Shown here one piece after another: positions 21,179 to 52,898 of a stretch of DNA of 64,000 nt. The DNA comes from Paenibacillus sp. W2I17 (GTDB lineage: Bacteria > Bacillota > Bacilli > Paenibacillales > Paenibacillaceae). Numbering within the stretch: the first letter of the stretch is position 1; each line of letters opens with the position of its first letter. The stretch lies in assembly GCF_030815985.1 (NCBI RefSeq), contig NZ_JAUSXM010000001.1:806001-870000 (forward strand). Reading direction: 5' to 3'. Both the position numbers and the translations under genes were made by a program. Under the pieces are notes generated by a model. That model had not been told where the DNA came from. It made no database searches and was given only the letters and a program-made list of their open reading frames with translations.

Positions 21179-21941
21179 TCAGTTCTTTTCTACAACAATA
21201 AAGACACGATCCTCCCCTTCCGGGTTATCAATCGAAGCTGATAAATCCTTCAATTTGGAAAAGCGGATTTTTTTTCCATCCTACTTCTAAAAGAGAGGCC
21301 TTCACTGCATCTAATCTAAAACAGGTATTAACTATCGAATGTACGAATCTTTCATAATACCCATTTGGTTTTTTCGAGAAACCCGTCATATGAGTAACGG
21401 CTCTTGAATTCATCTCATCATAGAAGCTTCTAGATACAATCATCGATTCCTCATTGTCTTCAATTACGATATTCGTCCATCCTTGAAGACCTTTATTCGT
21501 ATTTAAATCAAAAATAAAGATCCCATGATCATCCGTCACGTTATAAACCGCACGAAAACATCTTTTTAAGGCTTCAATATCAGGTAAATGGTTAAGGGCA
21601 TCGAATGTTGAAACAACCAGACCCAATTTCTCTTCCAAAGTAAAATCCGTTGCATCGCCTTGTACAAATCTAGCCTGTCCCGTCTCTACATACTTCGAAT
21701 TGTTGCGGTTCGCGTAATTCAACATCCCCGAAGACAGATCGATCCCCGTCACTTTATATTCTTTTTTTAGGAAATAATGAGCCAGGTGTCCTGTTCCACA
21801 ACATAAGTCAAGAACATGGTTGTTATTACGGCTAATGTCCTGCTGTTCATAGTATTTTAGAATTCTTGGTGCTGCTTGCAGGGCAAAATTAGACCATTTT
21901 TTATTATATAATCCGGCAAAAACATTACCATACGTTTCCAT
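21179..21941 (-). CDS. SAM-dependent methyltransferase, last gene of the cluster (C-terminal frameshift)
   Basis: Class I methyltransferase with motif I VLDLCCGTGHLA near residue 43, the acidic GIDLSSGML of motif II near 66 and FDALNHL near 115. As given, the frame ends at 21228 after 237 residues. A plus-strand run of eight T at 21268-21275 seems to carry one base too many: with seven, the protein would continue as IRFSKLKDLSASIDNPEG and end VEKN at 21179, the normal ending of this family. It starts 10 bases after the FMN reductase gene, so it is probably the final tailoring enzyme of the pathway. The substrate could be a hydroxyl, amine or carboxyl made by earlier steps. Confidence 0.75.
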
Positions 21942-21951
21942 TTCATCACAC

Positions 21952-22488
21952 TCACGATCTATTTTGGAATCGATACGAAACCTCTTGCAACAAACCTAAG
22001 AGAACACTTTTAAACTGTGATTGAGCTTCTTCACTAAATTCGTTATTCTCTAATAACTCTTTCTCACACACAGAGACTTGTTGAGGGATAACATGGGCGT
22101 GTAATGACCGAAATATCAAGCGCATCGAGTTAAGCGTATTAATGCCTGACTTCATTCCACCTGAAGTTGACATCAGTGCAATCGTTTTATTTTTAAATCC
22201 TGATCCATCTTGGTAGTCGAGTAAGTTTTTGAGTGCTCCAGAGTACCCACCATGATACTCCGGAGAAGAAATAAGAAATGCATCAGCTGACTTTATTTTT
22301 TCCGAAACCGTGATCATTTCTTCTGTTAGGGGTGCTACCGGACTGTACAACGGAAAATTGGTATCACATACACAAATGATCTCTGTATCGTGCCCTTTCT
22401 TCTCCAGCATTCTACTTGCCATATTTAATAGTTTTTTACCTAAGGAGTTGGGATTCATACTTCCATTAATTAGAACAATTTTAGCCAC
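21952..22488 (-). CDS. NADPH-dependent FMN reductase/flavodoxin-like oxidoreductase
   Basis: 178 residues with a flavodoxin-like fold: LINGSMNPNSLGKKLL (phosphate-binding loop at residues 6-21) and SPEYHGGYSGALKNLLDY, the usual FMN/active-site loop of the family. GTG at 22488 follows AGGGGGAGCGAA and overlaps the stop of the small TPR gene by eight bases. It could supply reduced flavin to another enzyme or reduce a pathway intermediate such as a quinone or nitro group. Part of the PEARL-like operon. Confidence 0.8.
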   Translation of the reverse strand: MAKIVLINGSMNPNSLGKKLLNMASRMLEKKGHDTEIICVCDTNFPLYSPVAPLTEEMITVSEKIKSADAFLISSPEYHGGYSGALKNLLDYQDGSGFKNKTIALMSTSGGMKSGINTLNSMRLIFRSLHAHVIPQQVSVCEKELLENNEFSEEAQSQFKSVLLGLLQEVSYRFQNRS

Positions 22489-23152
22489 TTCGCTCCCCCT
22501 CTTTCTTCTCCACAAGTTTTATCCGTACGATCCAGGACTTCACTTCGTTGTCGGCATGCAAGCGATAAGATTCTTGTAAGGCTTCCAAAGCCAACGGATA
22601 GTTTTTCACCTTCATATGACTCATACCGAGCAATCGCCAGCCATATGCATCCTGGGGATGATCTTTTACATATGAAGTAAGCAAGGTGCATGCTTCTTTT
22701 TCTTGATGTGTACGGATGTAAAGCAGCGCAAGTTCTGTTGTTGCCCATTTTTTATGAACGCTATCAACATAATTTAGATACAGCTCCTTAAGATCATTCC
22801 TTCTATTTTGCTTTTTAAGAATTTGTGAAAAGAGAGTGGCGTATTCTAAATGATCAGGGTGCATTCGGCAAAGAGCTGACAAACCAGTGGCTGCTAGTGT
22901 CCATTCTTCTTTCGAAACTGCTGCTTGTACTAAATTATGCCAGGCCTTCGAATGACTCTGATCCTTTACAACTGCGTTGTTCCACAATTGCATTGCTTTT
23001 ATTTGATGTCCATGAGCAAAATATACATTTCCAAGATGATATAGGGAGCTGGCATCTCTTCTCAAAAGATAAATAAAGCGCCAAAAGAAAGTTGAGATAT
23101 AAAATCTCGCCTGGAATCCGTTATGAGGAGATTGTTGCTCCAGTTTCTTCAA
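22481..23152 (-). CDS. Small TPR-repeat protein of the cluster
   Basis: 223 residues with four or five tetratricopeptide repeats (SLYHLGNVYFAHGHQIKAM near 36-54 and AYGWRLLGMSHMKVKNYPLA near 175). TTG start at 23152 inside the end of the radical-SAM-like gene, preceded by GGGGGGAATATTAG; the 32-base overlap implies coupled translation. TPR units bind partner proteins, so it may hold the enzymes of this pathway together. It is unlike the three large TPR proteins and lacks their N-terminal domain. Confidence 0.75.
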   Translation of the reverse strand: MKKLEQQSPHNGFQARFYISTFFWRFIYLLRRDASSLYHLGNVYFAHGHQIKAMQLWNNAVVKDQSHSKAWHNLVQAAVSKEEWTLAATGLSALCRMHPDHLEYATLFSQILKKQNRRNDLKELYLNYVDSVHKKWATTELALLYIRTHQEKEACTLLTSYVKDHPQDAYGWRLLGMSHMKVKNYPLALEALQESYRLHADNEVKSWIVRIKLVEKKEGERSG

Positions 23153-25040
23153 CTAATATTCCCCCCGTATATAACTTGAGTAGCAACTTTCGTACGGAGG
23201 CCTCCTGCTTTTCTGGAAACTTTTTCAGCAAATCACGTAAAGTGATTGAATTTTTGCATTGTGCCAGAACTGCTCCAATGGCAGGAGAGATTACCATACA
23301 GCTATCTTTTTTACAGTCATATAAGACACGTGTGTCTTTTCTTAGAATAACTTCGAACGGGTACTCTTTTTCTTGGCCTGGAACGGTGGGGTGCATATTC
23401 TTTTCTAATTCAGATAGTGAGTAAGGCAAAGTGTACATTTTACATGAAGGAGAAAGCGACAATTGCAAATCTTCCTTCAGTACAGGTTCAGCTTCTGAAT
23501 CTACCAACCTAGGTGCCTCAATGAAAAGTTCCGTATCATCAACAGCCAGCACATCACGAGGAAAGTCGTATCTTTCCTTTTGCTGAAGCTCACCCACGAG
23601 CGAAGAGGCAAAGGGAAGAAAACGTTCACTGTCCCAACCCGTTTCAGTGCGGAAATGATAACTACGTTGAATGTCTTTCTCTGGGTTTTTCTCAGCTATC
23701 CATTCAATTCCATAGTCTTTAGATTCGTTCCAAAAGTGGCTTCCTTCATAAAGGCGGAAAATTCTAAAACGAATATAACGAGTTGTGCATTCCGAATGCT
23801 CTTTTAAAAAAGATATGAACTCCGTAAACCCTTCCGGAGAAGTGAGCGGATAACCCAGGACGAGGGAATGGTACAACGGTATTTGTTCCGACCTACATGC
23901 GCTCCAGGATTGAAGCATCTTCTGCTTGATCTGATCAACATGATCTCTAACGAGCCAACCTTTCAACTCCCAGTGAACCCATGTCAGCCCCCTACTCTTA
24001 AGCCATCTCACCTCATCCTCATTCAAGGATTGATCAAACTTTAAATATATCCCCCAAGGGGCTTTAATATGAAATTTTTCCAAGCATTCTCCAAAATATA
24101 GGGCTTCTTCTACGGTGGTAGGTTCGTACAAGTAAAGACGTTTATTCTCGATGTGCTTGCTGTCGGATAACCAAGAAAAAAGTGAATCTTCGTGCATCCA
24201 GTTCTTCTGCACCCGAATATCTAGATAGGGAGTCCAATATTGATCTGCTTCTAACTCTCCGAATCCCCAGCTGATGGTTTGCTTGGAGCTCCTATGCTGA
24301 ATGAAATCTTGTGGATGTCTAACAGCTATAACTTGGTTTATGTTCATAGGAGGATGGTTTACTAGGTTTTTACCAAAATCTGAAAAGAACGGACCTGCCC
24401 ATGAAATACGCGCATCTTTATTCTTCTCACGTATAAAATCAGTTAATGTATAGGCCGGAACTAATTGTTGATCTGATTCAATCCATATGACCCATTCCCT
24501 CTCTTCATGTTCTACTATCGATTCCAAGAAGGGTTTAAACGGATTCGTTTTGTTGTCCTGGACACTCTTCTCCAGTTGTTCTGTACTCTCGGTGGAATAC
24601 AGTAAATTAACATCATTCATTGCTAATTGAGTAGGAAGAAAAGGGAGTTGAAATAGCTCTATTGCATAACGGATAAGATTCCTTGCCTCTTCTCGTTCAC
24701 GCACATCGCATTTCGTCTTCATCGTTTGAATAGCTTCTTGAAGATTCTTCTCTACGCTTTCCCTTCTCAAAAAGGCTCTAAGCAGGCCTCTCACATACTC
24801 TTGATCCTTTGCTTGAATTTCGTTTTGAGTATGCAAGCTGTTCCATTCATTTTCAAGATGTTGGTATCGTTTTGTTACAGCATGCGAGTCTAACATATGG
24901 TTCCAAAACAGAAGATTTGCATCGACTAATTCAATCTCCATATGAGAAGCTCGTACAGAAGAGATACAGGACGTTAACAGAAAAGGAATCTCGGAGGGAT
25001 CTTTTAAAGGTGGATAGATTACTTTAATCGGAAGAGTCAT
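23121..25040 (-). CDS. B12-type radical-SAM-like protein without the iron-sulfur motif
   Basis: 639 residues. The N-terminus (KVIYPPLKDPSEIPFLLTSC, then ELVDANLLFWNHML) matches the start of B12-binding radical SAM proteins of the RiPP maturation type. The middle keeps the barrel pattern (RWLKSRGLTWVHWELKG, then SLVLGYPLTSPEGFTEFISF). Where CxxxCxxC should be, between about 270 and 310, there are no cysteines (YWTPYLDIRVQKNWMHEDSL), so no 4Fe-4S cluster can be held there. The C-terminus (SITLRDLLKKFPEKQEASVR, then LYTGGILVEE) looks like a winged-helix peptide-recognition domain of PqqD type. Probably a binding or scaffold protein derived from an enzyme. Start ATG 25040 has GGGG eight bases upstream and overlaps the previous gene. 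Confidence 0.7.
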   Translation of the reverse strand: MTLPIKVIYPPLKDPSEIPFLLTSCISSVRASHMEIELVDANLLFWNHMLDSHAVTKRYQHLENEWNSLHTQNEIQAKDQEYVRGLLRAFLRRESVEKNLQEAIQTMKTKCDVREREEARNLIRYAIELFQLPFLPTQLAMNDVNLLYSTESTEQLEKSVQDNKTNPFKPFLESIVEHEEREWVIWIESDQQLVPAYTLTDFIREKNKDARISWAGPFFSDFGKNLVNHPPMNINQVIAVRHPQDFIQHRSSKQTISWGFGELEADQYWTPYLDIRVQKNWMHEDSLFSWLSDSKHIENKRLYLYEPTTVEEALYFGECLEKFHIKAPWGIYLKFDQSLNEDEVRWLKSRGLTWVHWELKGWLVRDHVDQIKQKMLQSWSACRSEQIPLYHSLVLGYPLTSPEGFTEFISFLKEHSECTTRYIRFRIFRLYEGSHFWNESKDYGIEWIAEKNPEKDIQRSYHFRTETGWDSERFLPFASSLVGELQQKERYDFPRDVLAVDDTELFIEAPRLVDSEAEPVLKEDLQLSLSPSCKMYTLPYSLSELEKNMHPTVPGQEKEYPFEVILRKDTRVLYDCKKDSCMVISPAIGAVLAQCKNSITLRDLLKKFPEKQEASVRKLLLKLYTGGILVEETGATISS

Positions 25041-27468
25041 GTCCATTTCCCCTTTCAACAAAGTAGCTTAATCTCAATTCGGCCGTGTGGCGTTGCTTAT
25101 TACCTTTAGTCAGCCATGTCTCGCTCAGACCAGGTAACATTTCACTTAAAGTACATTCCTCTTCAGTCCCAAAAGCATTCCACATCTCAAGAAGAAAGTA
25201 GTTATCAAAATGAATATAAAAGGGTTTCGGTTGATTGGCTATTTTAACGAATGCTTCGTTGGGAAGTCTGTTTTCCACGTGATATTTGAATGCATCATAA
25301 AAAAGCTCGATGGAAGAGCCTGGATATACTCCATTCCAGAAGGTCTCTTTTGTGATCCGCCATGTAGCTCTTTGCACGACCACATCCCCCATCATCAGTC
25401 TTGGCGTAAATGCGCCTGTATTGACAACAAAAGGCACCGCCTTAGGTAAAGAAAAGAAAGAATGCACCATGGTATGAAGCTCACCGTTGTAAGTACGATA
25501 AACTCCATCATCATCAGGTAGGGATAAAACAACGCCATCCTCCAAACACTGGACCATCGCATGAGCCAGGGAGATCTTTTGGTTTGAACTATTCGATATA
25601 CTGCTCATTTGTGCGGTTATGCCAGGATACTCGAAGGGAACAATTTTAAACCTTTTATTGGATAGTAAATTCAACATTTGTTGATTTGTTGTACTGTTTT
25701 TGATTTTCTCTTTTATTTGTGCTGTAAGATGTTCTTCATCACGATGAAATTGCAATGCCCATCCCCATAGCATAACGGTATCGTGAATTTCCCCAAGGAT
25801 AACTTGATAAGTGCCATCGTTCCTTTTGGCTAGCATAAGATCGGGAGAGTTAATCCAGCCGAGGTCTGGATCAAACTCGCAGGATGTATCATCGGGAAGA
25901 GCAACAATAAATTCATCGCTTTTTTTCACAAAGGCTTCCACTTGTTGCTCTATATCCGTTCGTATGTTACGCCATCGATTTTCCCAGTGCTGGGCTTCAG
26001 GATGCTGTGTGACATCATATATAAATTTCAGGTAGGGCACCTCTTGTGTTGACGGATACAAGGTGGTGAATATCTCTTTCGCAAGCCTTTGCTGCATTTC
26101 ATCCTTTTCTTGTCCATGTTTAGCGCAGAGGTTTAGCCATTTAGGCACACTTTCTCGGATCACACCTGCAATGCTCCCACCAATCTGAACCTCGTCTAAT
26201 GGACCATGGCACTCCTCATATAGAAGAGTGCGGTCAGCATATATAGCTCCACCACTTCTTCTAGGATTTTCCCCTGTCCATTCCATGAAAGACGTCTCAA
26301 GTCGTGTTAATTCATGTATTTTGTCTTCCAACATCAAAGAGGGATATGAACTTTTTAAGTCCCATAGCCAATTGATCCTTTGTCTCCATAAGATCACGTC
26401 CGGGTGAGGAGGTAAGGTTGGGTTATTGATCCACTCTCTTAGACTTCGTAAGGCATCCGGTTCGGTGACGGGAATTGGTATTTCAATATCAACCAACTTT
26501 TTGCTCTCGAGCCTAGACAGCAATGGTTCTGTTTCTTCAATCGTCCAATTTAAATGATTTGCCAGCTCGGATATGGTTTGAAAATCATGAGACAACCCCT
26601 CAACTAAGGGGTGATAACGCTCCTGAAGTACAATTCGTTTCCCTGAATGAGGAAAATAAAGTGTGGAGCCCTCTTTCTTGAGCAGGTAAGATAATTTCAC
26701 ACTACAATAGGGTCTGAGCTCTTTTTTGATTTTTAATACATTTATTAAACTGGAAACTGCCCAGTACGGTAGAAAAGCTCTACGTTCCCTTTCTTGATCC
26801 AAAACTTTATATTTCACATCTTTGTTTATCTCTCCTAATCTGCCGTATTGAATAGGACCAAAATAACTTGTGGTTTCATTCTTCGTGCAAAACCTCTGAA
26901 GATAGGAGATTAATTGCCTCTCTGTTCGCTTAACATCTGCATTTCTTTTCACTAAAGCATTCTGCAAATAGGGAAGTAATGCATTCTTATACATGGATGG
27001 ACTTTGTTGAAAAACAGCTTCTTGTAATCGCACGTCCTTATAGATATCCTGTAGTTCACGTTGTTTTAAAGCGAGCTCCTCTCTGAATACTTGAGCACTT
27101 GCTTCACGGATGAATTCCAAACGTTCTACGTTCATTTGATAATGCTTTAATTCATGTAATACGTTTGTGTCTAATCCCTCAGTCTCCAGGCTCGAAATGA
27201 GTTCTGAATTTATTGGTTTTCTTTTGGCAATCGTTTTACGTGCTTTTTTCCAAAAAGGAAGTGCAGCGTCTGAGATGCAGTTAACTCGTTCTAATTCCTT
27301 CATATGAGTGATACGCTGCTCTATATTTCTCTCAATCTCATATCGTTGATGAAACGTTTTAACCGTCTTCTCAAAACGAAGTCTTTCAATCCATTCCGCT
27401 GGAAATCCGGTAGAGCGTAGAATAAACTCAGGAAAGTGCTCCCACTTTGGAGTCCCGATATCGCCCAC
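25024..27468 (-). CDS. PEARL-like small LanB protein, copy G
   Basis: 814 residues. LanB N-terminal (glutamylation-type) domain: ILRSTGFP at residues 16-23, QRFCTKNETTSYFGP at 191-205, a winged-helix segment near 296-332, YADR at 410-413 followed by EEC, NSPDLM near 566, LGEIH near 585 and RHTAELR near the end. There is no C-terminal elimination domain. Lanthipeptide dehydratases of this kind glutamylate Ser/Thr from glutamyl-tRNA; PEARL relatives instead add an amino acid from aminoacyl-tRNA to a peptide C-terminus. Last of the seven copies. The GTG at 27468 directly abuts AGGAG and is the only standard start after an in-frame stop; an ATC eight bases past the site is the alternative. It overlaps copy F by 41 bases. 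Confidence 0.8.
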   Translation of the reverse strand: MGDIGTPKWEHFPEFILRSTGFPAEWIERLRFEKTVKTFHQRYEIERNIEQRITHMKELERVNCISDAALPFWKKARKTIAKRKPINSELISSLETEGLDTNVLHELKHYQMNVERLEFIREASAQVFREELALKQRELQDIYKDVRLQEAVFQQSPSMYKNALLPYLQNALVKRNADVKRTERQLISYLQRFCTKNETTSYFGPIQYGRLGEINKDVKYKVLDQERERRAFLPYWAVSSLINVLKIKKELRPYCSVKLSYLLKKEGSTLYFPHSGKRIVLQERYHPLVEGLSHDFQTISELANHLNWTIEETEPLLSRLESKKLVDIEIPIPVTEPDALRSLREWINNPTLPPHPDVILWRQRINWLWDLKSSYPSLMLEDKIHELTRLETSFMEWTGENPRRSGGAIYADRTLLYEECHGPLDEVQIGGSIAGVIRESVPKWLNLCAKHGQEKDEMQQRLAKEIFTTLYPSTQEVPYLKFIYDVTQHPEAQHWENRWRNIRTDIEQQVEAFVKKSDEFIVALPDDTSCEFDPDLGWINSPDLMLAKRNDGTYQVILGEIHDTVMLWGWALQFHRDEEHLTAQIKEKIKNSTTNQQMLNLLSNKRFKIVPFEYPGITAQMSSISNSSNQKISLAHAMVQCLEDGVVLSLPDDDGVYRTYNGELHTMVHSFFSLPKAVPFVVNTGAFTPRLMMGDVVVQRATWRITKETFWNGVYPGSSIELFYDAFKYHVENRLPNEAFVKIANQPKPFYIHFDNYFLLEMWNAFGTEEECTLSEMLPGLSETWLTKGNKQRHTAELRLSYFVERGNGHDSSD

Positions 27469-29965
27469 CTCCTAATCGTTCTGATGCGGATGCCCCTTTT
27501 TGAAAAACAGTTCCCCTCATTTCGAAACAGTACTTGCCCTCCTCATCCTTAAGCCACAAATGATCGGGTGAGGGCTCCATTTCAATAAAAGTAACAGTTT
27601 CATTTTTTTTAAGTAAACTATGGAGCAATTCGATCGCGAAGCAATTTTCAAAATCAAAGAAAAACGGCTTTTTCTCCGAGTTCACCTTGAAAAATACATA
27701 TCGCGGAAGCTGATATTTATCCCGGAGACGCTGCATTTCAATAAAAATCTCAAACAAATTTTTTCCGTTACGTAAGCCTTCTAATTGTTCGTCTCCAAGC
27801 TCCCAACGTTCGCGCTGAAAAATGACACCGTTAATTTCAATCCTTGGCGTATGTTCGGAAGTGCGAATAACCGGTGAACTCACACGCGAGGGAGCAAAAG
27901 CCCATAGATGAATGTTCTCGTCTCCGCTATTGTATAAGTAGTGCTGTCTTTTATCTTGATCTATTAATTTCACTTCCTGATTTTCATACGTCACATATAA
28001 ATCACGAATCGACACCACGCCTTGCGCTCTTGTTGAAGGTGTGCCAAATAGTTTGATAATCGTACCCGGGAAAGTTTCATGGATAAGCCCTTTGTGCCTT
28101 CTTGTATTCAATATGACAGAGAGATTTTGGTACATGGGCATATCGGAGAGCATGTCATTAATCTCCTCATTCACCTGCTCTCTTCTAGCATCAAAGAGAA
28201 GTTGTGAGCCCCACATCGCAATAAATTGGTGAACCTCACCCAATATGACTTGGTAATCCCCTCTCGATAGTGCATCTATATCCTTAGCTGAAAACATCAC
28301 ATCTGGAGAAGTATGACACTCCTCATATTTCCTGAAGCGATTAAATTGCTCGACATCCTCAGAGGTTATATGGGCGATTGAACCTTCCTGACGCTTCTGA
28401 ACCAACTCATCCAGTAGCTCATTAAATTGAGTTAATGCAGGAAAAGAAAGGTCAACCTTTGCTTCAGCTAATAAGGTCTGGGATTTATATATAAATTCTG
28501 AATATGGAATATGGTTTCGATGGTCCTTTATATGCTCAAAGATACGATGTGCAATGGTTTGATAATAATCTCTCATGACATCGCCGAAGGCGGCGCTTAG
28601 ATCGAGAACCGGTTTGAGCTTTTTCATAAAATCATCATAGAAAGTCTTGCCAAAAGAAAGTTTATCAATGGTTCCCTTACATTCCTCGTAGTATAACGTT
28701 CGATCCGCATACATTTGCCCTTGGCTTCGCCGTGCAGACGAATGAGTAACTTCTTCAAATAATTGTTCCATGCGCCGGGTGACATCTTGCCGATGGTTTA
28801 AATCTTTTGCCAATGCCTCTTCTTTCAATTGTTTAAACTGTTCCAAAATCTCAAGCCAGGTTCTCTTCCTCCCTTCGTTTAACGGAAGCTCCTCTAACCA
28901 CGAGTGCAAATAGCTAAATGGATCAAAAATAGTGGAAGGGATTTCGATTTCAAATAGAACTATATTTTTATCGGCCAGTTGTTTAATGTACCGACGAAGT
29001 TCAGAAATACTCAGATCCAATTTTTCTGACAATTGATGAAGATTTAGCTCTTCACTCGATATTTCCTGTACGATCGCATCGTATTTATTGGGAAGTGAAA
29101 TTTCTTTATTCAGGTGTAAAAAGAACAGTTTATTTTGTTGCAGTGCACACATCGGGTGCAGTCTAGGGATCAGAAAGTTGCTGATCTCCTGCTCTTCGGC
29201 TATACGTTTGGCAAGCTCTTTAACCATCCAGAAGGAATAATGGATGACACGTTCTTCAAATTTACCCGACTTAGCTTCAAAATGCATGGACTTGTCCAAA
29301 TCCATATCCCATTCTGCATAATTCATTGGCCCAAAAAAACTGGCCGTATCATTTTTTGAACAAAAACGCTGCAAATAGGAGTAAAAACGCATTTCCAGTG
29401 TTCTGATTTTTGAAGGGCGGCTCTCATACTCCTGATGCGATATAAAACGGGAATAGGATATATTAAATACATCCGGATTAGAAATATAAACAGCCTCCGC
29501 CAGATAAGGATCTTTGAATATCTCTTGAAGTTGTCGCCTTTTCATTTTGAGTTCTTCATAAAATATTGCCTCAGTCCGTCTCATGTTTTCTTGGATATGC
29601 AGATCCATATCAAGCCATTGCTGCAAACCTTTACGCAAAGGATGATCCATAGTAAAGAATTGGTTCACTTCCTCTAATTCACGTGTTCGTATCGTATGTT
29701 TAGCTAGATATTTTCGAACTCGGGATAATACGTGTAAAATCGATTTCTGATTCTGTTCTGCATGCAGGTTGACAGTCTGAGGAATGATGTCATGCAATAA
29801 ATGTTCCGTGAGAGATTGCTTGTCCTTCTCTAAGGTAGTGATCTCAGATAGCTGCTGAATGGTTTCGTTCCAGTGGAGCTGCTCTAGTGTTTCAAAAGGG
29901 AACCCCGTTTTTCTGACGACAAGTTTGGATACAAACGTCCAGTCCACACTCTTTTTGATATCCAT
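27428..29965 (-). CDS. PEARL-like small LanB protein, copy F
   Basis: 845 residues, the longest of the set apart from copy D. Family marks: VVRKTGFPFETLEQL at the N-terminus, YLQRFCSKNDTASFFGP near 200, winged-helix segment LSEKLDLSISELRRYI, YADRTLYYEECKG, TSPDVM, ILGEVH, SEHTPRIEINGVIFQRERW and a C-terminal FDFENCF...MRG block. All motifs shared by the other copies are present, so it should be active. The ATG at 29965 is nine bases after GGAGGT; two ATGs further up lie in or before that site. It follows the TPR protein at 29997 with a 31-base gap and overlaps copy G at its end. Which aminoacyl-tRNA it would use cannot be read from sequence. Confidence 0.8.
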   Translation of the reverse strand: MDIKKSVDWTFVSKLVVRKTGFPFETLEQLHWNETIQQLSEITTLEKDKQSLTEHLLHDIIPQTVNLHAEQNQKSILHVLSRVRKYLAKHTIRTRELEEVNQFFTMDHPLRKGLQQWLDMDLHIQENMRRTEAIFYEELKMKRRQLQEIFKDPYLAEAVYISNPDVFNISYSRFISHQEYESRPSKIRTLEMRFYSYLQRFCSKNDTASFFGPMNYAEWDMDLDKSMHFEAKSGKFEERVIHYSFWMVKELAKRIAEEQEISNFLIPRLHPMCALQQNKLFFLHLNKEISLPNKYDAIVQEISSEELNLHQLSEKLDLSISELRRYIKQLADKNIVLFEIEIPSTIFDPFSYLHSWLEELPLNEGRKRTWLEILEQFKQLKEEALAKDLNHRQDVTRRMEQLFEEVTHSSARRSQGQMYADRTLYYEECKGTIDKLSFGKTFYDDFMKKLKPVLDLSAAFGDVMRDYYQTIAHRIFEHIKDHRNHIPYSEFIYKSQTLLAEAKVDLSFPALTQFNELLDELVQKRQEGSIAHITSEDVEQFNRFRKYEECHTSPDVMFSAKDIDALSRGDYQVILGEVHQFIAMWGSQLLFDARREQVNEEINDMLSDMPMYQNLSVILNTRRHKGLIHETFPGTIIKLFGTPSTRAQGVVSIRDLYVTYENQEVKLIDQDKRQHYLYNSGDENIHLWAFAPSRVSSPVIRTSEHTPRIEINGVIFQRERWELGDEQLEGLRNGKNLFEIFIEMQRLRDKYQLPRYVFFKVNSEKKPFFFDFENCFAIELLHSLLKKNETVTFIEMEPSPDHLWLKDEEGKYCFEMRGTVFQKGASASERLGGGRYRDSKVGALS

Positions 29966-29996
29966 CCTGTTCATACCTCCAAACATCATATTCTAA

Positions 29997-38873: not shown

Positions 38874-38881
38874 CGTCGATC

Positions 38882-40012: not shown

Positions 40013-40041
40013 AAGTTCCTCCTAACATAAACGTCATGCTG

Positions 40042-42501: not shown

Positions 42502-42512
42502 TGTTGCACCTC

Positions 42513-43766: not shown

Positions 43767-43780
43767 ATGAGGTTCCTCCC

Positions 43781-45514: not shown

Positions 45515-45526
45515 GATCTCACCTCT

Positions 45527-46777
45527 TTAATAGATTACAGATACGTTTTCTACATACAAAGATGGAGATATAAATCCTCTACCTGATGTATTGCTGTATC
45601 CATCCGTTGCAGGATCAATTGAACGTAACATCTGAAATAAAGGCGCTTCAATTTGGACTTGGGTTAATCTCTCTACCAAGGTGTTATTATGAATTCTCCA
45701 ACCTTCCGCTCCAAAAACGAGCTTGCCACCTCGAATATGTCCGCCGTAGCTGCGATTCAATAAGAAACTGGAAGGGTTTCTATTTATCAATTCTTCTGTT
45801 GAATGTGAGCCTTCCTCTACCTTCAGGTTCGTATATTGAATTTTAGGCATAGTCTGATAATCTTTACGAAACGCTCGGCCATTAGCCATCTGCTTATGCC
45901 TGGTTGAAGAAGAAAGTGAATGCAAGGCTTCGTTAAATACACCATTTTTAAGTAATGCAATGTCTTTACACAGGGCTCCTTCATCATCAAAACTTGAGCT
46001 TCTCAGCAGCTTAGGGAGGTGAGCGCAATCCGTTAATGTGAGTGCTGGACTTGCAATTCGTTTCCCTTGTTTCTGCCAAAGTACGGGTACATTCGTATCC
46101 ATATAGTCAGAAATAAAAAGGTTTCCGAGAGCTTTAAGCAGCTCTTCTGTTCCCTGCTCCGTTAATATGATGGATGAATGATTTACACTTCTTTTTGGGC
46201 GCTCTGCTTGAGTTTGCAGTTGACTATTTAACTCTCCACATAGTGACTGCCAATCTAAATCTGTCATGGAGCGAAAAGAGAATGTCGTACTGGCTCTATT
46301 GGATTTCCCTTGAACCAAAACAGAAACGGTATGTTGAGTCTCTCTTTTCTCGTGTTCTCTTCCCTCCGTATCTTGGTAAAAGGCCGTTTTCTCTTCCGTT
46401 TCGAAAAATAGGGTTGGGCTCACGATAAGATCAGCGATAGAAAATATCATTTCTTTTCCTTCACGCAGGATATGATCTACGGTATGGGTTGAGACGGGTT
46501 GGTAAATTTCCAAATGGGGTTGATATATATTCTTTGGATCTGACCGGTGTGGTACAACCCCTGAGACTCCTGTATCACAGCTCCACTGACTCCAATTTTG
46601 ACTTTTCACATTAGTATAATTGGATAAAGGACGAATACATGAATAGAATTGATCATCGTTCCACCTCCGTAACGATGCTCCGCATCCTTTTCTCTCCGAA
46701 TAAAGGGATTCCATTTCGGTCATGATCCATGATTTCTGACATAATTCTGTTCCATAATAATCCGCATATCTTCTCAT
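45527..46777 (-). CDS. tldE: TldE/PmbA-like protease subunit
   Basis: 416 residues, the non-zinc partner of a TldD/TldE heterodimer. It has the C-terminal PmbA/TldD layout (PALTLTDCAHLPKLLRSSS, FDDEGALCKDIALLKNGV, SSFLLNRSYGGHIRGGKL) and lacks HExxxH, as expected for the E subunit. ATGA overlap with tldD at 46774-46777 gives tight coupling. TldD/E hydrolyse unfolded peptides and mature microcin B17 and pearlin-type scaffolds. The sequence is diverged from the housekeeping pair, as usual for copies inside biosynthetic clusters. Confidence 0.8.
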   Translation of the reverse strand: MRRYADYYGTELCQKSWIMTEMESLYSERKGCGASLRRWNDDQFYSCIRPLSNYTNVKSQNWSQWSCDTGVSGVVPHRSDPKNIYQPHLEIYQPVSTHTVDHILREGKEMIFSIADLIVSPTLFFETEEKTAFYQDTEGREHEKRETQHTVSVLVQGKSNRASTTFSFRSMTDLDWQSLCGELNSQLQTQAERPKRSVNHSSIILTEQGTEELLKALGNLFISDYMDTNVPVLWQKQGKRIASPALTLTDCAHLPKLLRSSSFDDEGALCKDIALLKNGVFNEALHSLSSSTRHKQMANGRAFRKDYQTMPKIQYTNLKVEEGSHSTEELINRNPSSFLLNRSYGGHIRGGKLVFGAEGWRIHNNTLVERLTQVQIEAPLFQMLRSIDPATDGYSNTSGRGFISPSLYVENVSVIY

Positions 46778-48072
46778 GAGTCTATGGCCTGCACTTCCCA
46801 ATCAAGTACTCTTACTGTTGGTGATCCAGCCGAGACGGGTAAAGGAGATTGCCCTAGTTTTCCGCATCCACCTCTTACTTCCGCATGAATCTGAAAATCA
46901 TTCCCTACCCTATCAATAGAACGAAGCAGCTTGCGCCCGTCCCCCTTTAATATGGAGGGCGTTATTGGCGTTGTTAATTTACCGTTTTCTATGAGATAAC
47001 CTTCGGTAACATGAATCTTAAATTCCCCAGTGATCATATTTACGTCTCCATTAAAAGCATTTTTTATATAAATACCTGATTTCGTTTCTAAAATGATTTC
47101 TTCTGGTTCATCTTCCCCGGGCAATACGAACGTATTAGACATTCTTACCAGGGGAGGATGGGCATAATTTATGACACGTCCATGTCCGTTGCTCTGTACT
47201 TTACTGTGCAGGTGACTTAAATAATTTGAAATTCTGCCCTCTTCCACTAATGTGGTGCACTTGGCGGTGATTCCTTCGTCATCTATGTTATAGCTCCCGG
47301 GCAAACCCAAACTTGTTGGATCATCTACAATGGTAAGTTTGTCGGAGCCAATTCTTTCACCTTTACTGTTATGAAATGCAGCGCCTGTTAGAGCAGCTAT
47401 ATCTGCTTCGAGTCCATGACCCACAACTTCATGAAAGATGCCAGGAGCTGCTAAAGGGCCTAAGACTAACGAGTATGCTCCTGAGTGAAATGGTTTTGCA
47501 TTAAGCTTGTCCAACGCTGATTCTGCAGCGTACAGAACTAACTTTTCAAGTTCCACCTGGTTTACATATTTTGGGGAAATCCAGCTCTTCGTCACACTCG
47601 ACTTCGTTGTTTTCTTATTTTGTCTCGCAAGTACTTCCAACTCCAACATGAAACAAGGCCTGATATCTTCTCGAAGTCCGACTTCTGTCGCAAAAAACCA
47701 TACATGTTGCTTTACAGATTTCCAGTAAGCTCTTGTTGATATGACCTCTGGTGAAAAATGAAGAGCTAAATGATTCATGTGATGATTCCACTTGTCTATT
47801 TCGTCCGTTAAATCATCCTCAAAAGCTTTCTCCTGCTTGGGCTCCCAATGTTTAAACAACGGTAATGGATCTCCTGTTACAAGATGTTTGGAAGCAGAAT
47901 AAAGTGAATCCGGATTCAAGTCCGAGATCGCGATGACTTGTCGATGAGCCCCATGATTCAATCGAACAGCACTGCCCATCTCGGTCAGGCTCTTAATTTC
48001 GCTTTTTTCAAGATTGTCAAATACGCGAAGCTCCGTTTTCTTGTATTCAGCAAATAGGTGAATATTCTGCAT
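46774..48072 (-). CDS. tldD: TldD-like zinc metalloprotease
   Basis: 432 residues. The zinc motif HEVVGH at residues 214-219, followed by GLEAD, is the TldD HExxxH signature. The third ligand Cys lies in GGCGKLGQSP near 410. GSYNIDDEG near 265 is also family-typical. ATG at 48072 has GGGGG five bases upstream. It is the first gene after the scaffold-peptide gene, separated from it by a strong hairpin. In PEARL systems this protease digests the scaffold and frees the modified amino acid; the same role is inferred here. Confidence 0.85.
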   Translation of the reverse strand: MQNIHLFAEYKKTELRVFDNLEKSEIKSLTEMGSAVRLNHGAHRQVIAISDLNPDSLYSASKHLVTGDPLPLFKHWEPKQEKAFEDDLTDEIDKWNHHMNHLALHFSPEVISTRAYWKSVKQHVWFFATEVGLREDIRPCFMLELEVLARQNKKTTKSSVTKSWISPKYVNQVELEKLVLYAAESALDKLNAKPFHSGAYSLVLGPLAAPGIFHEVVGHGLEADIAALTGAAFHNSKGERIGSDKLTIVDDPTSLGLPGSYNIDDEGITAKCTTLVEEGRISNYLSHLHSKVQSNGHGRVINYAHPPLVRMSNTFVLPGEDEPEEIILETKSGIYIKNAFNGDVNMITGEFKIHVTEGYLIENGKLTTPITPSILKGDGRKLLRSIDRVGNDFQIHAEVRGGCGKLGQSPLPVSAGSPTVRVLDWEVQAIDS

Positions 48073-48105
48073 GATATCCCCCTTTTTGTTCATTCTTTAC
48101 TTCAT

Positions 48106-48154
48106 TTTTTGCGTATCAGAATCGGCTGTAAAAGCCGATCCCTATACGCAAAAA
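48106..48154 (-). terminator. Hairpin after the scaffold peptide gene, partial terminator/attenuator
   Basis: Two nested stems: GCGTAT/ATACGC (48111-48116 with 48144-48149), extended by a T/A-run, and ATCGGCT/AGCCGAT (48121-48127 with 48133-48139). T- and A-runs flank both sides. It follows the peptide stop by 10 bases and precedes tldD. It probably gives more peptide mRNA than protease mRNA, as in many RiPP operons. Confidence 0.75.
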
Positions 48155-48163
48155 TTGGTGTGA

Positions 48164-48274
48164 CTAAAGGGCTAGAGGGGCAATCTTATCCTCGATCTCT
48201 TCCAATTCAAAATCGATATCATCTAGGTCTTCTAATTCCAGATCCAATTCTTCCAATTCAACTGTGTCAGCCAT
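48164..48274 (-). CDS. Acidic scaffold/precursor peptide of the cluster
   Basis: 36 residues, start ATG at 48274, stop TAG at 48164. AAGGAGGTG ends six bases upstream, the best ribosome binding site in the operon, fitting a peptide made in large amount. It starts MADTVELEELDLELEDLD; 15 of 36 residues are Asp or Glu, with Leu/Ile/Phe at every second to fourth position. It ends EDKIAPLAL. There is only one Lys, no Ser or Cys, and one Thr at position 4. It lies between a PEARL-like gene and tldD. The absence of dehydratable or cyclisable residues near the C-terminus argues for a carrier to which amino acids are added at the end, as for known pearlin scaffolds. No homolog can be checked here. Confidence 0.8.
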   Translation of the reverse strand: MADTVELEELDLELEDLDDIDFELEEIEDKIAPLAL

Positions 48275-48319
48275 CTTTATCACCTCCTTACCAAGGTATA
48301 ATAAAGACTATCGTTAACG

Positions 48320-50494
48320 CTAAATGGAGTTTTCTTTTCTATATACAAAAGTACGCAGCTCACAACAGTAGTGCCCCTTTTCATCTTTAATGAATAAATC
48401 CTTTGGAGAAGGATCCATTCTCGTAAACATAAAAGAGGTTGCTTTTTTGACTTCGTTAAAAAACATATCCGCACAAAAAGGATTATCAAAATCAAACCAC
48501 ATGGGCTTCTGTTCATGTGAGAAATGAAGAAAACCCTCGGTTGGTAAATGAAATCTTTTTTGGATCGTCTGCAGCCGTTCAAACTGTTGAAACCAATCCG
48601 ATATGTTCTGCTCCCCGACCCAATCTGAAGGTTCAAACCTCCAATGCTCACGCATTATGGTGACCCTCCCTACTTTAAGGGATGGGTGTCTACCTTTTGA
48701 TGTTGATTTAGGTGGATCAAACATGGGTGAACAGAACAGCGCAAACGGAAAAAAAGTTTCTTCTTTAAATCCAAGAGCAGGAGCATAAAAATGTAAGCAA
48801 TGATGAGTGTTTTTGATAAAAAGGGCTACTTCATTATTTTTAATTCGTACTTCAAGTTGGTCTAAAGACAAAATGTTATCTTTGCTGGATGCAGAAACAC
48901 CGGTTAATTCTACGGAAAGACCCGGATATTCCTGTGGTGTGCTTTTCATTGTGCGTTTAAATATCCAATTTGCCCACGATTTTTCACTATTCTCTACATG
49001 TAGGGCTTCATGTACGGTTTGTCGTAGTTTTCCTTTTTCCTTATTAAAAAATTGCATCCACCCATCGCCCGTAAAACCATGATGAAGTTCTCCTATAACA
49101 ATGGATGTGACCTCGATCCCCGCGTCACTTTCACTGCCAGCGATCATAAGGTCAGGAGATAGAAGCCATCTAAATGAATTCAGTTCTGCTTGCCATTCCT
49201 GCAACACACTTTGAGGCACCTGAATGTAGGAAGTACCCTGATCTTCGACCAACCAAGTCTCTAGAAATTCCGCCATGGACTGATCTTTTAAGGTTGGAGG
49301 GTTTCTTAGCCAATACGATATCCATTTCTTTGCTGGTATAGATGAACGGCCATGACTAACTTTTTCAAATTGTTGCATGGCTGTCCTTTGGAATACCTTC
49401 CACCGTTCTAATCGAAGTTTTGCTTGGATTAGTATGGCTTGGTCTAATTCCTGCCAAAGATCCTTCGGGATAACGACGGGCATAAACTGCTGATCATAAC
49501 ACTCCTCGTAAACTAAGGTTTTATCCGCAAAATATTGGGTGTTTTTACCTTGATAACGCTCTCCCGTAATTCGAGTATAAATTTCTTCTATGTTAGCTAT
49601 GGTTTTACTCTTTTCAGTAGGAGATGAACTATCGACATACTTATCGAGATAGTGCTCGATCTCTGACAAAGTAATGAGCCATTTATGGGAATGGGAAACC
49701 CCTAATTGAAGTAGACGTTGCAATTCATCTAAGCCATCTACGGAGGAGGAAGGAAGCCTCCATTCCGCTGCTTTTTCTCCCAAGTCTTCCTTTATTGCAG
49801 TTAATATTTTTTGCAGCGCTTGATGCGAGATGAATGCTTTTTTCTGTATGATCTTTCTTTCTTTTAGGGGTGATCCTTGATCTAAAATGCCATAACTAAT
49901 GGGACCGAATTCACCCATCGTATCGTTTTTTGTAGTAACACGTTGAAGATAGGCGAAGAGGGTTCTCCCCATCTGTCTTTTTTGACTAAAGCTCGCCTGA
50001 TCTTTTTGCTTATAGGTTTGATAAAAGTTCCAAAATGCCGAGTTAATCGTATAAAGCATTCGGTCATAAAGATCAGACTGATACAGTTCAAACAGCTTTT
50101 GTTGTAATAACTCGAGTTCTTCCTCAAATGTTTTGCGACTTAACATTTCATATTGAGCGATCTGTTGATGTTTAAGAGAATAATTATGGATATGCTCTTC
50201 CATGTGCCAGTCTAGCAGTATAGATTTATCATTGTCTGTTAAGGGATTCTTATGTTCTATTCTTCGGATGATCTTACGTTGATGGGAGAGGACAACATTC
50301 TGTTTTGGAATCGATCGGATCTCTTGAATCCAATGATCGCACCAATTTTCATAATCTTTACGTGCCTTTTTCCATTGTTTAAAATGTTCCTTGGTTGTTG
50401 CTACTCTTAGCTGAAGAATGTCTTCTATAGGGAGAGAGGTACTACGTAATACATATGGCTTTAGCCATTCCCAGGTAGATGTATTAACCCACAC
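48320..50494 (-). CDS. PEARL-like small LanB protein, copy A (winged-helix segment missing)
   Basis: 724 residues, the most diverged copy and the one next to the peptide gene. It has VLRSTSLPIEDILQL (SLP for GFP), YLQRVTTKNDTMGEFGP near 190, SPDLMIAG, IGELHHG and FDFDNPF...CCELR. Two key departures: the common YADR is FADK, and about 75 residues between KND and that motif are gone, exactly the winged-helix segment that in LanB proteins is thought to bind the leader peptide. HTPRI is also altered to HPSLKV. GTG at 50494 is chosen for GGAGAG five bases upstream; an ATG seven codons earlier has no site. It may act with another copy for peptide binding. Confidence 0.75.
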   Translation of the reverse strand: MWVNTSTWEWLKPYVLRSTSLPIEDILQLRVATTKEHFKQWKKARKDYENWCDHWIQEIRSIPKQNVVLSHQRKIIRRIEHKNPLTDNDKSILLDWHMEEHIHNYSLKHQQIAQYEMLSRKTFEEELELLQQKLFELYQSDLYDRMLYTINSAFWNFYQTYKQKDQASFSQKRQMGRTLFAYLQRVTTKNDTMGEFGPISYGILDQGSPLKERKIIQKKAFISHQALQKILTAIKEDLGEKAAEWRLPSSSVDGLDELQRLLQLGVSHSHKWLITLSEIEHYLDKYVDSSSPTEKSKTIANIEEIYTRITGERYQGKNTQYFADKTLVYEECYDQQFMPVVIPKDLWQELDQAILIQAKLRLERWKVFQRTAMQQFEKVSHGRSSIPAKKWISYWLRNPPTLKDQSMAEFLETWLVEDQGTSYIQVPQSVLQEWQAELNSFRWLLSPDLMIAGSESDAGIEVTSIVIGELHHGFTGDGWMQFFNKEKGKLRQTVHEALHVENSEKSWANWIFKRTMKSTPQEYPGLSVELTGVSASSKDNILSLDQLEVRIKNNEVALFIKNTHHCLHFYAPALGFKEETFFPFALFCSPMFDPPKSTSKGRHPSLKVGRVTIMREHWRFEPSDWVGEQNISDWFQQFERLQTIQKRFHLPTEGFLHFSHEQKPMWFDFDNPFCADMFFNEVKKATSFMFTRMDPSPKDLFIKDEKGHYCCELRTFVYRKENSI

Positions 50495-52511
50495 GGATTC
50501 TCTCCGGTTTTTCATAATAAAGATTAGTCAGATCAAACGGTCGATTCAATTTGGTTTCTGGTTTTTGGATTGACCATCTTACGTAACTCTCCCATGTCTC
50601 ATCTTTCTTTTGATCCCATCTTAAAAGGATTTCGCTTGCTTTCTCCGCAGCGCTTCCTTTGGATTGGATTTTTAAGCTGTTCAAAATTTCCTGCTTCCCC
50701 TCATCCCCATTTCCTTGCTTTTCTAGACATATCGCTAGCGCCGTTGCGACCCGAGGAAGGTCTTCATCCTGTATAAGAAGTAACTTGGAATCAAGACTTC
50801 TTCTGTACCACTGCGTCGCTTTATCATAAAGCCGCTGCTCAAAATATATGGCTCCCAGACTCCTGGCAATGATGTCCATATGAAAAGCATCGTTCATGTC
50901 TTTTGCAATGCGATAACTATCTTTTAATGATTGGATTGCTTCAGCGTATCGCTGGAGTTTAAAGAGCAACCCTGCTTTCCTGTATAAATAATGCTTCGTA
51001 AAAACCGGGCTTGAATGAGTAACAAACTTTTCGAATTTTGACCAATGTTTGAGTGCTGTGTCCACTTTCTTCATATATTCAAACAAAACAGATATATTGG
51101 ATATTAAGTTTATTTTTATATGGATGGCATCTTCCTTTCGATTACCTTCCTTTATGTGTTCAAGTCCTTGTTTGCATTCTTTAAATGCTTGAGCTAAATC
51201 GCCCGTTTCCACGTAGGTAAGTGCCCTTAGGTTATGTAACCAAGTTCGCTCAACTTCTACTTCGGAACCGGTCGTATCCGCTATGTTTTGGAGTGCTTGA
51301 TCAATAATTCCCCTTCCTACTAATGGGGTGTTTAACCTTTTTGTACACAGTAATGCGATATACAAGTGTAATTCGGATTTTTTTAATTTATCTTCTGTGA
51401 AAGTAAGCGCATGCTTAAAAAGGTTAAGTGCTTTATCGTATTCAACCATAAACGCATAACACAACCCCATATATATCCATAGTTCAACTGTGGTTTGTTT
51501 TTTCAGATCATGGATATACCGGGATACTTTATTGACAAGAAAGAGCGCATGTTCATAATTTTGTGTGAAGACACTGGTCTCCAGGGCTTCAAGTAATATC
51601 TCGTCTAGTTGTTCTGTATCCCCACTCTCCATGCAGTCTAGAAGTCTTGTTGTTTTTTGAGTTTCATTGTTCGTAAGCTCCAGCTTTAGTGAGTTGCCAT
51701 ATGAGAATTTACTTTCATACCCATCTTTCCAATCGGTTATCTCATGTACAGTAGGCGTGATTTGGTTGTAGAGACTTTCAAGTAGTCGATTCCTGTTTTC
51801 GGCCAGATTCACGTGCATACGAATATCACTGTCTGCTGCCATTGGGAAACGGGAATCAAGATCACTAGCTTCGGATACGGTTGCAACGATGACAATGGGC
51901 AGATCATCAATACATTTTGACAACCGAGCGAAACATCGAAGAGAATGCTCGTCCATTCTGTCGATCTGATCGAACAGAAATATGGTGTTTGTATGCTCCA
52001 GATATTTGGTATAGTCTAATAAAACTTTAACAATGGTCTGTGTAACTCTGAACATTTGTTCAGATTCTTTATGCAATCTGCGACGTGATGGAGGAAGTGC
52101 AATGTCTTCAAGCTTTTGAGCATTCACAAAAGGAGGCTCGGAACTAAACGCTGGAAAGAGATACAGGATCTCTGGCGCATGATTTTTTAGAAGATTGTCT
52201 TCCCCTTTGTGAAGTAGAAAAGAGATAATAGTATAGATTAAAGGAGCAATGGAACTAAAACCTCGAGTCTCCGATGTACCTCCAATGGTGATCAGATTCG
52301 TCCTGTGAGCTAATCGCGTATGCATTTTCTCAGCCAAAGCAGCTTTGTGGAGCATATTTCCGTTGTAAATCCAGATCTTATCTTCTATTTTTAAGGGGAG
52401 CTGTCCCCTCTTTAATTCCAGGATTTTCAGTACATTTAACTCTATTTTTTCATATTCTGACTTTATCTTGCTTTCAAAAAGAAAAGGATTCCCTACTTCG
52501 TTTGAACGCAT
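50484..52511 (-). CDS. Large TPR protein with decayed STAND-ATPase N-terminus, copy 1
   Basis: 675 residues, first gene of the operon. The N-terminal 270 residues look like a STAND/LuxR-type ATPase (MalT-like). TIFLFDQIDRMDEHSLRCFA near 190 has the Walker B strand and following helix, but the P-loop position (LITIGGTSETRGFSS) lacks GxxxxGK[ST]. TPR repeats fill residues 330-620, and the tail has KLNRPFD. ATG at 52511 follows AAGGATGGTG; the frame is open 43 codons further up without a better site. The end overlaps copy A. It may be a regulator or an assembly scaffold. Paralogs lie at 43781 and 29997. Confidence 0.7.
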   Translation of the reverse strand: MRSNEVGNPFLFESKIKSEYEKIELNVLKILELKRGQLPLKIEDKIWIYNGNMLHKAALAEKMHTRLAHRTNLITIGGTSETRGFSSIAPLIYTIISFLLHKGEDNLLKNHAPEILYLFPAFSSEPPFVNAQKLEDIALPPSRRRLHKESEQMFRVTQTIVKVLLDYTKYLEHTNTIFLFDQIDRMDEHSLRCFARLSKCIDDLPIVIVATVSEASDLDSRFPMAADSDIRMHVNLAENRNRLLESLYNQITPTVHEITDWKDGYESKFSYGNSLKLELTNNETQKTTRLLDCMESGDTEQLDEILLEALETSVFTQNYEHALFLVNKVSRYIHDLKKQTTVELWIYMGLCYAFMVEYDKALNLFKHALTFTEDKLKKSELHLYIALLCTKRLNTPLVGRGIIDQALQNIADTTGSEVEVERTWLHNLRALTYVETGDLAQAFKECKQGLEHIKEGNRKEDAIHIKINLISNISVLFEYMKKVDTALKHWSKFEKFVTHSSPVFTKHYLYRKAGLLFKLQRYAEAIQSLKDSYRIAKDMNDAFHMDIIARSLGAIYFEQRLYDKATQWYRRSLDSKLLLIQDEDLPRVATALAICLEKQGNGDEGKQEILNSLKIQSKGSAAEKASEILLRWDQKKDETWESYVRWSIQKPETKLNRPFDLTNLYYEKPERIRVG

Positions 52512-52870
52512 ATATAACACCATCCTTTTTAAATAATTCTGACGTGTTATGTTGTCGATGTGTCCAGCAAATATGATGTGAAATGAAAGAGAGTGCATTT
52601 TGAGTGTGGTTAATATAAAAGTGTGTCTTGAGATTTGCACAATGAAAATGTGGAGCTACTCTTTAAACCTTGAGTAGAATAAGAAGAGTGTCATGTAATT
52701 TTACGTTGTGACCTTTTCCAAAGTACAATACGAAAACTAATCTGACTTTTTTTGCGAAGGATAAAATAAGTTAGCTAATTGCTAAGTAGAACGATGACAA
52801 AATCATCCAATAAACTTCCGAATTTAACTACAACAATTCTTTGAAATGTGTAATTTTTCTATTATTATAC

Positions 52871-52898
52871 ATAATAACACAGAATTTTCATGTGTCAA
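52871..52898 (-). promoter_or_regulatory. Promoter of the PEARL-like operon
   Basis: Perfect -35 TTGACA (52893-52898), 16-base spacer and -10 TATTAT (52871-52876) on the minus strand. Transcription would start near 52864, leaving a leader of about 350 bases before the ATG at 52511. A weaker TATATT near 52612-52617 lacks a good -35. No terminator-like hairpin or known riboswitch is seen in the leader. Confidence 0.65.

Follow-up and report, generated by a model that had tools for sequence, protein, structure and literature searches.

Two pearlin pathways are the closest described relatives of the locus considered here. As published, the bha cluster of Bacillus/Halalkalibacterium halodurans C-125 comprises a scaffold peptide whose PLAL end lacks the last Ala, seven PEARLs, BhaC1 and three further TPR proteins, a glycine oxidase, a flavin mononucleotide (FMN) quinone reductase, a methyltransferase and one hypothetical protein (PMC11117183, PMC11962472). 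The scaffold peptide, BhaA, is encoded without the Ala with which BhaB1 extends it (PMC11962472); BhaB1 is also named in PMC12945691 and PMC9850906. BhaC1, an FMN-containing TPR protein, trihydroxylates a Trp at the C-terminus, and its Asn472, Lys391 and Lys654 have been modelled at the substrate (PMC9850906). According to the account of the cluster in PMC11117183, BhaB4, BhaB5, BhaB7, BhaC1, BhaG and BhaH have been characterized, three TPR proteins, the methyltransferase, the hypothetical protein and three PEARLs are still unassigned, and the cluster was cryptic under the tested conditions, its product being unknown. The amm cluster of Streptomyces sp. CNR-698, which yields ammosamide C and has an ortholog in S. 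uncialis DCA2648, contains four PEARLs, an AmmA-type peptide, AmmC1, Amm10, the TldD/E pair Amm12/13, the glycine oxidase Amm14 and the quinone reductase Amm17 (PMC12715798).

Here we describe an operon that shares these components. It lies in a stretch of 64,000 nucleotides (nt) of Paenibacillus sp. W2I17 (contig NZ_JAUSXM010000001.1, positions 806,001 to 870,000), which we refer to as the window and number from its first letter; the host genome is a single contig of 7.0 Mb. The operon consists of 19 minus-strand genes running from 52523 down to 21228 (Table 1), and all 19 frames are open in the list of open reading frames (ORFs) of the window. Gaps between neighbours range from -59 to +70 nt, with overlaps at 11 of the 18 junctions, when the starts of the ORF tool are used for all genes except tpr718 and the peptide. 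Gene content matches the published bha list, to which the operon adds TldD/E and the exporter, both known from amm. Seven PEARLs and four TPR proteins are counted in the operon and in that published list alike. The operon is therefore likely, judged from sequence, to be a further member of the bha family, already known in kind. More specifically, we propose, with a probability of roughly 0.87, that it is a bha/amm-type pearlin cluster that builds a Trp-derived aminoquinone of the pyrroloiminoquinone type on the C-terminus of its 36-residue peptide.

A preliminary description of this DNA had listed a 19-gene operon with a 36-residue acidic peptide, TldD/TldE, an MFS exporter, flavin adenine dinucleotide (FAD) and FMN enzymes and a methyltransferase, all of which we found. 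It did not include the TPR flavoenzymes or the 646-residue hypothetical protein; the four TPR proteins and this hypothetical protein, rs646, are diagnostic for the cluster type. Its claim that the enzyme set is unlike those of known pearlin pathways fails, because the gene list matches that of bha and the remaining TldD/E and exporter are known from amm. A published pathway of the same gene content, which it had named as grounds for abandoning its reading, largely exists in the bha list, albeit one without a known product.

The scaffold peptide is acidic (16 Asp/Glu against a single Lys/Arg), contains no Cys or Ser and has one Thr near its start. A strong ribosome-binding site (RBS), AAGGAGGTGATAAAG, lies just 5' of its gene. 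Taken as a 39-residue ORF, the peptide scored 46.3 bits against NF033737, the NCBIfam model of the ammosamide/lymphostin RiPP leader (cut-off 30); among 59 related genomes searched, this genome and one other, G010, gave a match. The C-terminal EIEDKIAPLAL is in register with the end of BhaA. To place this end in context, we scanned one genome per species with a degenerate pattern and obtained 38 stretches, 35 of which are acidic scaffold peptides by context. PF04738 proteins are present in the same 35 genomes and absent from the other three. Among the 35 peptides, three end in PLAL, 19 in PLALA and 13 in a tail of 7-10 residues after PLAL. A Trp occurs within the tail in 11 of these 13 (L017, L018, L024, L027, L028, L032, L035, L038, L039, L040 and L042), and such tails look as if they were trimmed back before the ligases act. 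A scan of viral contigs with the same aim yielded a single in-frame match, which lay inside an unrelated long frame.

The seven ligases are 731-853 residues long, not 724-851 as first described. Their assignment as small LanB- or PEARL-like paralogs stands: six exceed the 28-bit cut-off of PF04738 (Lant_dehydr_N), and B731 falls just below it at 27.0 bits. We found no match to PF14028 (Lant_dehydr_C/SpaB_C) in any of the seven or across the 7.0-Mb genome, in a search that was positive in three of three control genomes. These data bear out the earlier statement that an elimination domain is neither fused nor separate. Nine residues are kept in all seven ligases, namely an N-terminal Arg, Tyr205, Arg208, Asp558, His577, Arg715, Lys763, Glu813 and Arg815 (BhaB7 numbering). 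These include Tyr205 and Arg208, which bind the CCA end in BhaB7. The ATP-site Asp and Arg of PEARLs (Asp542 and Arg803 in TglB; Tyr and Leu in split LanBs) are likewise present in seven of seven, as is Glu801, and the Asp and the last Arg distinguish PEARLs from split LanBs (PMC11117183). Together with the match to the leader family, these residues uphold the earlier view of PEARL-type ligases acting on a scaffold from which TldD/E releases the product. The PF04738 domain would also suit a lanthipeptide- or thiopeptide-type system in which Ser/Thr residues are glutamylated by the seven proteins and the glutamate is then eliminated by a hidden domain. Given that no PF14028 was found, the PEARL-specific residues and a peptide with neither Cys nor Ser and a lone Thr near its start, we reject such dehydration as next to impossible.

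The Glu of the GExH motif (Glu575 in BhaB7) occurs in six of the ligases and is replaced by Lys501 in B760. This Glu is not essential in TglB (PMC11117183) and is therefore not a defining PEARL feature by itself. The Lys of B760 and the missing stretch of B731 may mark ligases that act on a quinone ring instead of a peptide end.

We then sought to assign individual ligases. B814 is identical to BhaB7 at 15 of 15 published positions with an offset of 15 or 16 throughout, whereas the other six match at 11-13 positions with offsets that vary within each protein by 8 to 93; the positions, taken from the passages of PMC11962472 and PMC12945691 that give them, were placed on B853 by motif, without the BhaB7 sequence. 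On this basis we predict that B814 is the Trp ligase and corresponds to BhaB7 and AmmB2. The S. uncialis ligases were named AmmB1-B4 by gene order, a naming that we infer and that fits the published numbering, in which TldD/E are 12 and 13, the glycine oxidase is 14 and the quinone reductase is 17. On this naming, reciprocal best hits paired AmmB1 with B853, AmmB2 with B814 and AmmB4 with B851. In the ligase tree, B760 was placed with the AmmB3 clade (support 0.949), which suggests, less surely than for B814, that it is the Gly ligase. The deep branches of the tree are too weak for an amino acid to be assigned to any of B819, B827, B731, B851 and B853, and the placement of the published AmmB4 Glu581 on its S. 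uncialis counterpart is uncertain.

An alternative in line with the preliminary description is a new kind of pearlin pathway, in which seven additions yield an oligo-amino-acid small molecule without a Trp-quinone route. The pairwise identity of only ~20-30% among the seven paralogs fits this idea, as does the lack of a reciprocal partner for B819, B827 and B731 among the four amm ligases and the one-way match of B760. It sits poorly, however, with the presence of a BhaC1 ortholog, a glycine oxidase, a quinone reductase, an Amm10-family protein and an Amm/Lyn-type peptide, and bha also has seven PEARLs; we consider it improbable. Up to seven tRNA-dependent additions, as then proposed, stay an upper limit.

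The TPR proteins are central to the assignment. The first of them, tpr718, has 718 residues from the GTG at 52640 chosen by the ORF tool, but more likely 679 from an ATG at 52523. It is 53-55% identical to P0009, a protein annotated as from H. halodurans that carries exactly K391, N472 and K654. All three BhaC1 residues are kept in tpr718 (K434, N515 and K697 in 718-residue numbering) and in a second protein, tpr554 (K313, N393 and K537); in the more divergent tpr577 the lysines are lost (N/N/R). We therefore take tpr718 as the BhaC1 ortholog and predict that it is an FMN-dependent Trp trihydroxylase. Among 398 genomes sampled from the class, BhaC1 relatives were found in two, this genome and G137; neither this sample nor the peptide scan showed the bha locus of H. 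halodurans itself. Plasmids searched with tpr718 yielded a single weak match, in Kitasatospora.

The structure model of tpr718 has a predicted local distance difference test score (pLDDT) of 85. In its N-terminal 265 residues strands and helices alternate, and FLFDQIDRMDEHSL resembles a Walker B motif. Walker A is absent from 16 of 16 BhaC1-family members. Foldseek ranked the STAND protein 6mfv 32nd (747 columns, E 4.3e-6, TM 0.35, root-mean-square deviation 14.7), and AAA_16 matches were weak and confined to 2 of the 16 family members (best E 0.0094). In the structural comparison of tpr718, the 50 matches listed cover the TPR part. The N-terminal domain of the family thus looks like that of a STAND/AAA_16 ATPase in the model. 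If this is true, the BhaC1 family would be a group of FMN enzymes derived from an ATPase.

Other genomes were searched for the same gene set, as the preliminary description had suggested. Paenibacillus polysaccharolyticus has all 19 genes with their order unchanged; the 18 proteins are 76-96% identical there and the peptide agrees at 35 of 36 residues; chance is thereby ruled out for the grouping. The core recurs in G137 (L079/L080), which belongs to the Bacilli outside Paenibacillus: seven PEARLs, one of them (the B851 relative) split into two frames, two BhaC1-type proteins, the small TPR protein, rs646, glycine oxidase, TldD, TldE, exporter and FMN reductase. Its scaffold ends earlier still, in EDKIAPLA. 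The missing stretch of B731, the Lys of B760 and the lost lysines of tpr577 might be taken as signs of a decayed, non-functional copy of a bha-type cluster. Yet no frame is interrupted, the order is kept, the P. polysaccharolyticus ligases have the same or nearly the same length (B731 738 residues, B760 760 residues), and the GExH Glu is dispensable in TglB, as noted above. The changes thus look like specialisation, and decay is likewise improbable.

We searched a BhaC1-family profile against 34 of the 35 scan genomes together with this genome, G010 and G137, and each of these 37 has a member; the P. polysaccharolyticus record duplicates G010 and was not included. Two full-length BhaC1-type proteins were present in all five genomes whose scaffold ends in PLAL or PLA (the window, G010, G137 and two Pseudovibrio) and in none of the 32 with longer ends, the profile having been built partly from the families under comparison; in 11 of the 32, scoring covered only 33 of the first-look candidates. 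A second match did occur in two long-end genomes: in G068 it is an adjacent piece within one stretch, and in G089 a 172-residue fragment on another contig. This link between a short scaffold end and a second BhaC1-type protein is original to the present analysis. Because the five short-end genomes come from only about three lineages, common descent may account for the correlation. Separately, Streptomyces xanthophaeus (L069/L070) has seven PEARL-like frames beside a peptide ending in PLALA, and ligase number is therefore not tied to the scaffold end.

The protein rs646 matched the Amm10-position proteins by profile, and AprD4 and TsrM were among its matches. CxxxCxxC is missing from 13 of 13 Amm10-family proteins compared (one of these sequences being incomplete), and an active radical S-adenosylmethionine (SAM) enzyme was rejected on these grounds. 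By profile and model, rs646 is an Amm10-family protein with a predicted radical-SAM-like fold that lacks the cluster cysteines. Residues 590-639 at its C-terminus match PF04738 weakly (E 0.064) and appear RRE-like by sequence reading.

By analogy with bha and amm biochemistry, a PEARL would first add Ala, converting the PLAL end to PLALA, and B814 would then add Trp from Trp-tRNA. Using FMN, tpr718 would trihydroxylate the indole, and the FMN reductase would set the quinone/hydroquinone state. With Gly-tRNA as the donor, B760 would attach Gly to the quinone; removal of glyoxylate by the FAD glycine oxidase would then leave an amino group. Further PEARLs may add more amino acids to the ring or to the C-terminus, and tpr554 may perform a second flavin-dependent oxidation. 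TldD/E would cut the decorated end off the peptide; the methyltransferase would modify the released piece, and the MFS protein would export it.

Several observations weigh against this proposal. The bha gene list used for the comparison comes from a single paragraph, in which neither TldD/E nor an exporter is mentioned. A profile search with all seven ligases returned no H. halodurans PEARL among the matches listed, in which B853 relatives were dominant. AmmB3 hits B760 one way only, the best amm hit of B760 itself being AmmB1. The ligase tree is weakly supported at depth and does not join B814 to the AmmB2 clade, nor B853 to that of AmmB1; we retain the B814-AmmB2 link because residue register and reciprocal best hits support it. 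The model of rs646 has a pLDDT of only 65. No counterpart of tpr577 or the methyltransferase was found in G137. Finally, no halogenase, amidotransferase, Amm19-type dipeptidase or Amm20 was seen among the 19 genes; the lack of the first three indicates that the product is not ammosamide.

More tentatively, and as an idea that may well prove wrong, bha-type clusters could form a distinct pyrroloiminoquinone pearlin subclass. The final one or two residues would be missing from the scaffold gene through loss and be restored from aminoacyl-tRNA by extra ligases; tpr554 would carry out a second oxidation; and the BhaC1 flavoenzymes would be STAND-type ATPases that lost the Walker A loop and gained FMN. 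If so, oxidation would affect a second site or a second aromatic residue of the product, which would set it apart from ammosamide and lymphostin.

The operon is flanked upstream by IlvD-like and GntR genes and downstream by a convergent aldo/keto reductase gene. The promoter-like site in Table 1 is a consensus match only, one of 7 such sites in the scanned region against 4.0 expected, and a consensus-match scan found no terminator 3' of the operon.

Table 1. Features of the 19-gene operon, in order of transcription (window coordinates).
Feature	Position	Strand	Basis
Promoter-like site TTGACA-16-TATTAT	52871..52898	-	11/12 consensus match, TG before second hexamer
tpr718, BhaC1 ortholog, predicted FMN-dependent Trp trihydroxylase	50484..52523	-	53-55% identity to P0009; K434/N515/K697
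PEARL B731, most divergent of seven	48320..50515	-	PF04738; ~60-column stretch missing relative to other six
36-residue scaffold peptide ending EIEDKIAPLAL	48164..48274	-	NF033737 Amm_Lyn_leader; RBS; BhaA-like end
TldD-like protease subunit, HEVVGH at 221	46774..48093	-	PF19289 180 bits; motif
TldE-like subunit, without HExxxH	45527..46801	-	PF19289 118 bits
tpr577, divergent BhaC1-like TPR protein	43781..45514	-	Key positions N/N/R, both Lys not kept
MFS exporter (predicted)	42513..43790	-	PF07690 110 bits
PEARL B819	40042..42501	-	PF04738, residue register
FAD glycine oxidase (ThiO/DAO), BhaG/Amm14-like (predicted)	38882..40012	-	TIGR02352 261.1 bits, cut-off 250.8; PF01266
PEARL B827	36402..38885	-	PF04738, residue register
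PEARL B851	33866..36421	-	Reciprocal best hit of S. uncialis AmmB4-position protein
PEARL B760	31603..33885	-	Groups with AmmB3-position (Gly) clade; Lys501 for Glu of GExH
tpr554, second BhaC1-type protein	29997..31661	-	K313/N393/K537 kept
PEARL B853, candidate Ala or Leu ligase	27428..29989	-	Reciprocal best hit of AmmB1-position protein
PEARL B814, predicted Trp ligase (BhaB7/AmmB2 counterpart)	25024..27468	-	15/15 BhaB7 positions; reciprocal best hit of AmmB2-position protein
rs646, Amm10-family pseudo-radical-SAM protein (predicted), possible winged-helix/RRE-like C-terminus	23121..25061	-	Profile, structure model, motif scan
Small TPR protein, 223 residues	22481..23152	-	PF13428
NADPH-dependent FMN reductase, BhaH/Amm17-like quinone reductase (predicted)	21952..22515	-	PF03358 130 bits
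SAM-dependent methyltransferase (predicted)	21228..21941	-	PF13649 66 bits

Among the more distant systems, the lymphostin-type cluster of Salinispora vitiensis (L062/L063) has, in the stretch read, the peptide, BhaC1- and Amm10-family proteins, four PEARLs, TldD, glycine oxidase and FMN reductase; by contrast with the window, its scaffold carries a 10-residue tail after PLAL and its genome encodes one BhaC1-type protein. In the stretch of the Pseudovibrio cluster that was read there is no TldD/E match; a 623-residue protein with HETSH (HExxH) is encoded at L064:5838-7709 and is perhaps another protease that releases the product. To our knowledge, the 3-thiaglutamate (tgl) pathway has no Trp-oxidising TPR enzyme. 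It shares with the window a PEARL acting on a scaffold peptide, which in tgl adds Cys (PMC9303977, PMC9016710, PMC12945691). Relative to amm, the window has seven PEARLs and not four, a second BhaC1-type protein and a peptide without the terminal Ala. Relative to bha, it lies in another genus, with a BhaC1 ortholog at the 53-55% identity given above. No Paenibacillus pearlin or ammosamide-type cluster was named among the matches listed from the open-licence PMC literature, in which one listed paper contains both the words ammosamide and Paenibacillus. The further bha-type clusters of the Bacillota, including those of named Paenibacillus strains, offer new hosts in which to seek a bha-type product, and their comparison shows which genes are conserved and draws attention to two unassigned steps, those of tpr554 and of the Amm10-family protein.

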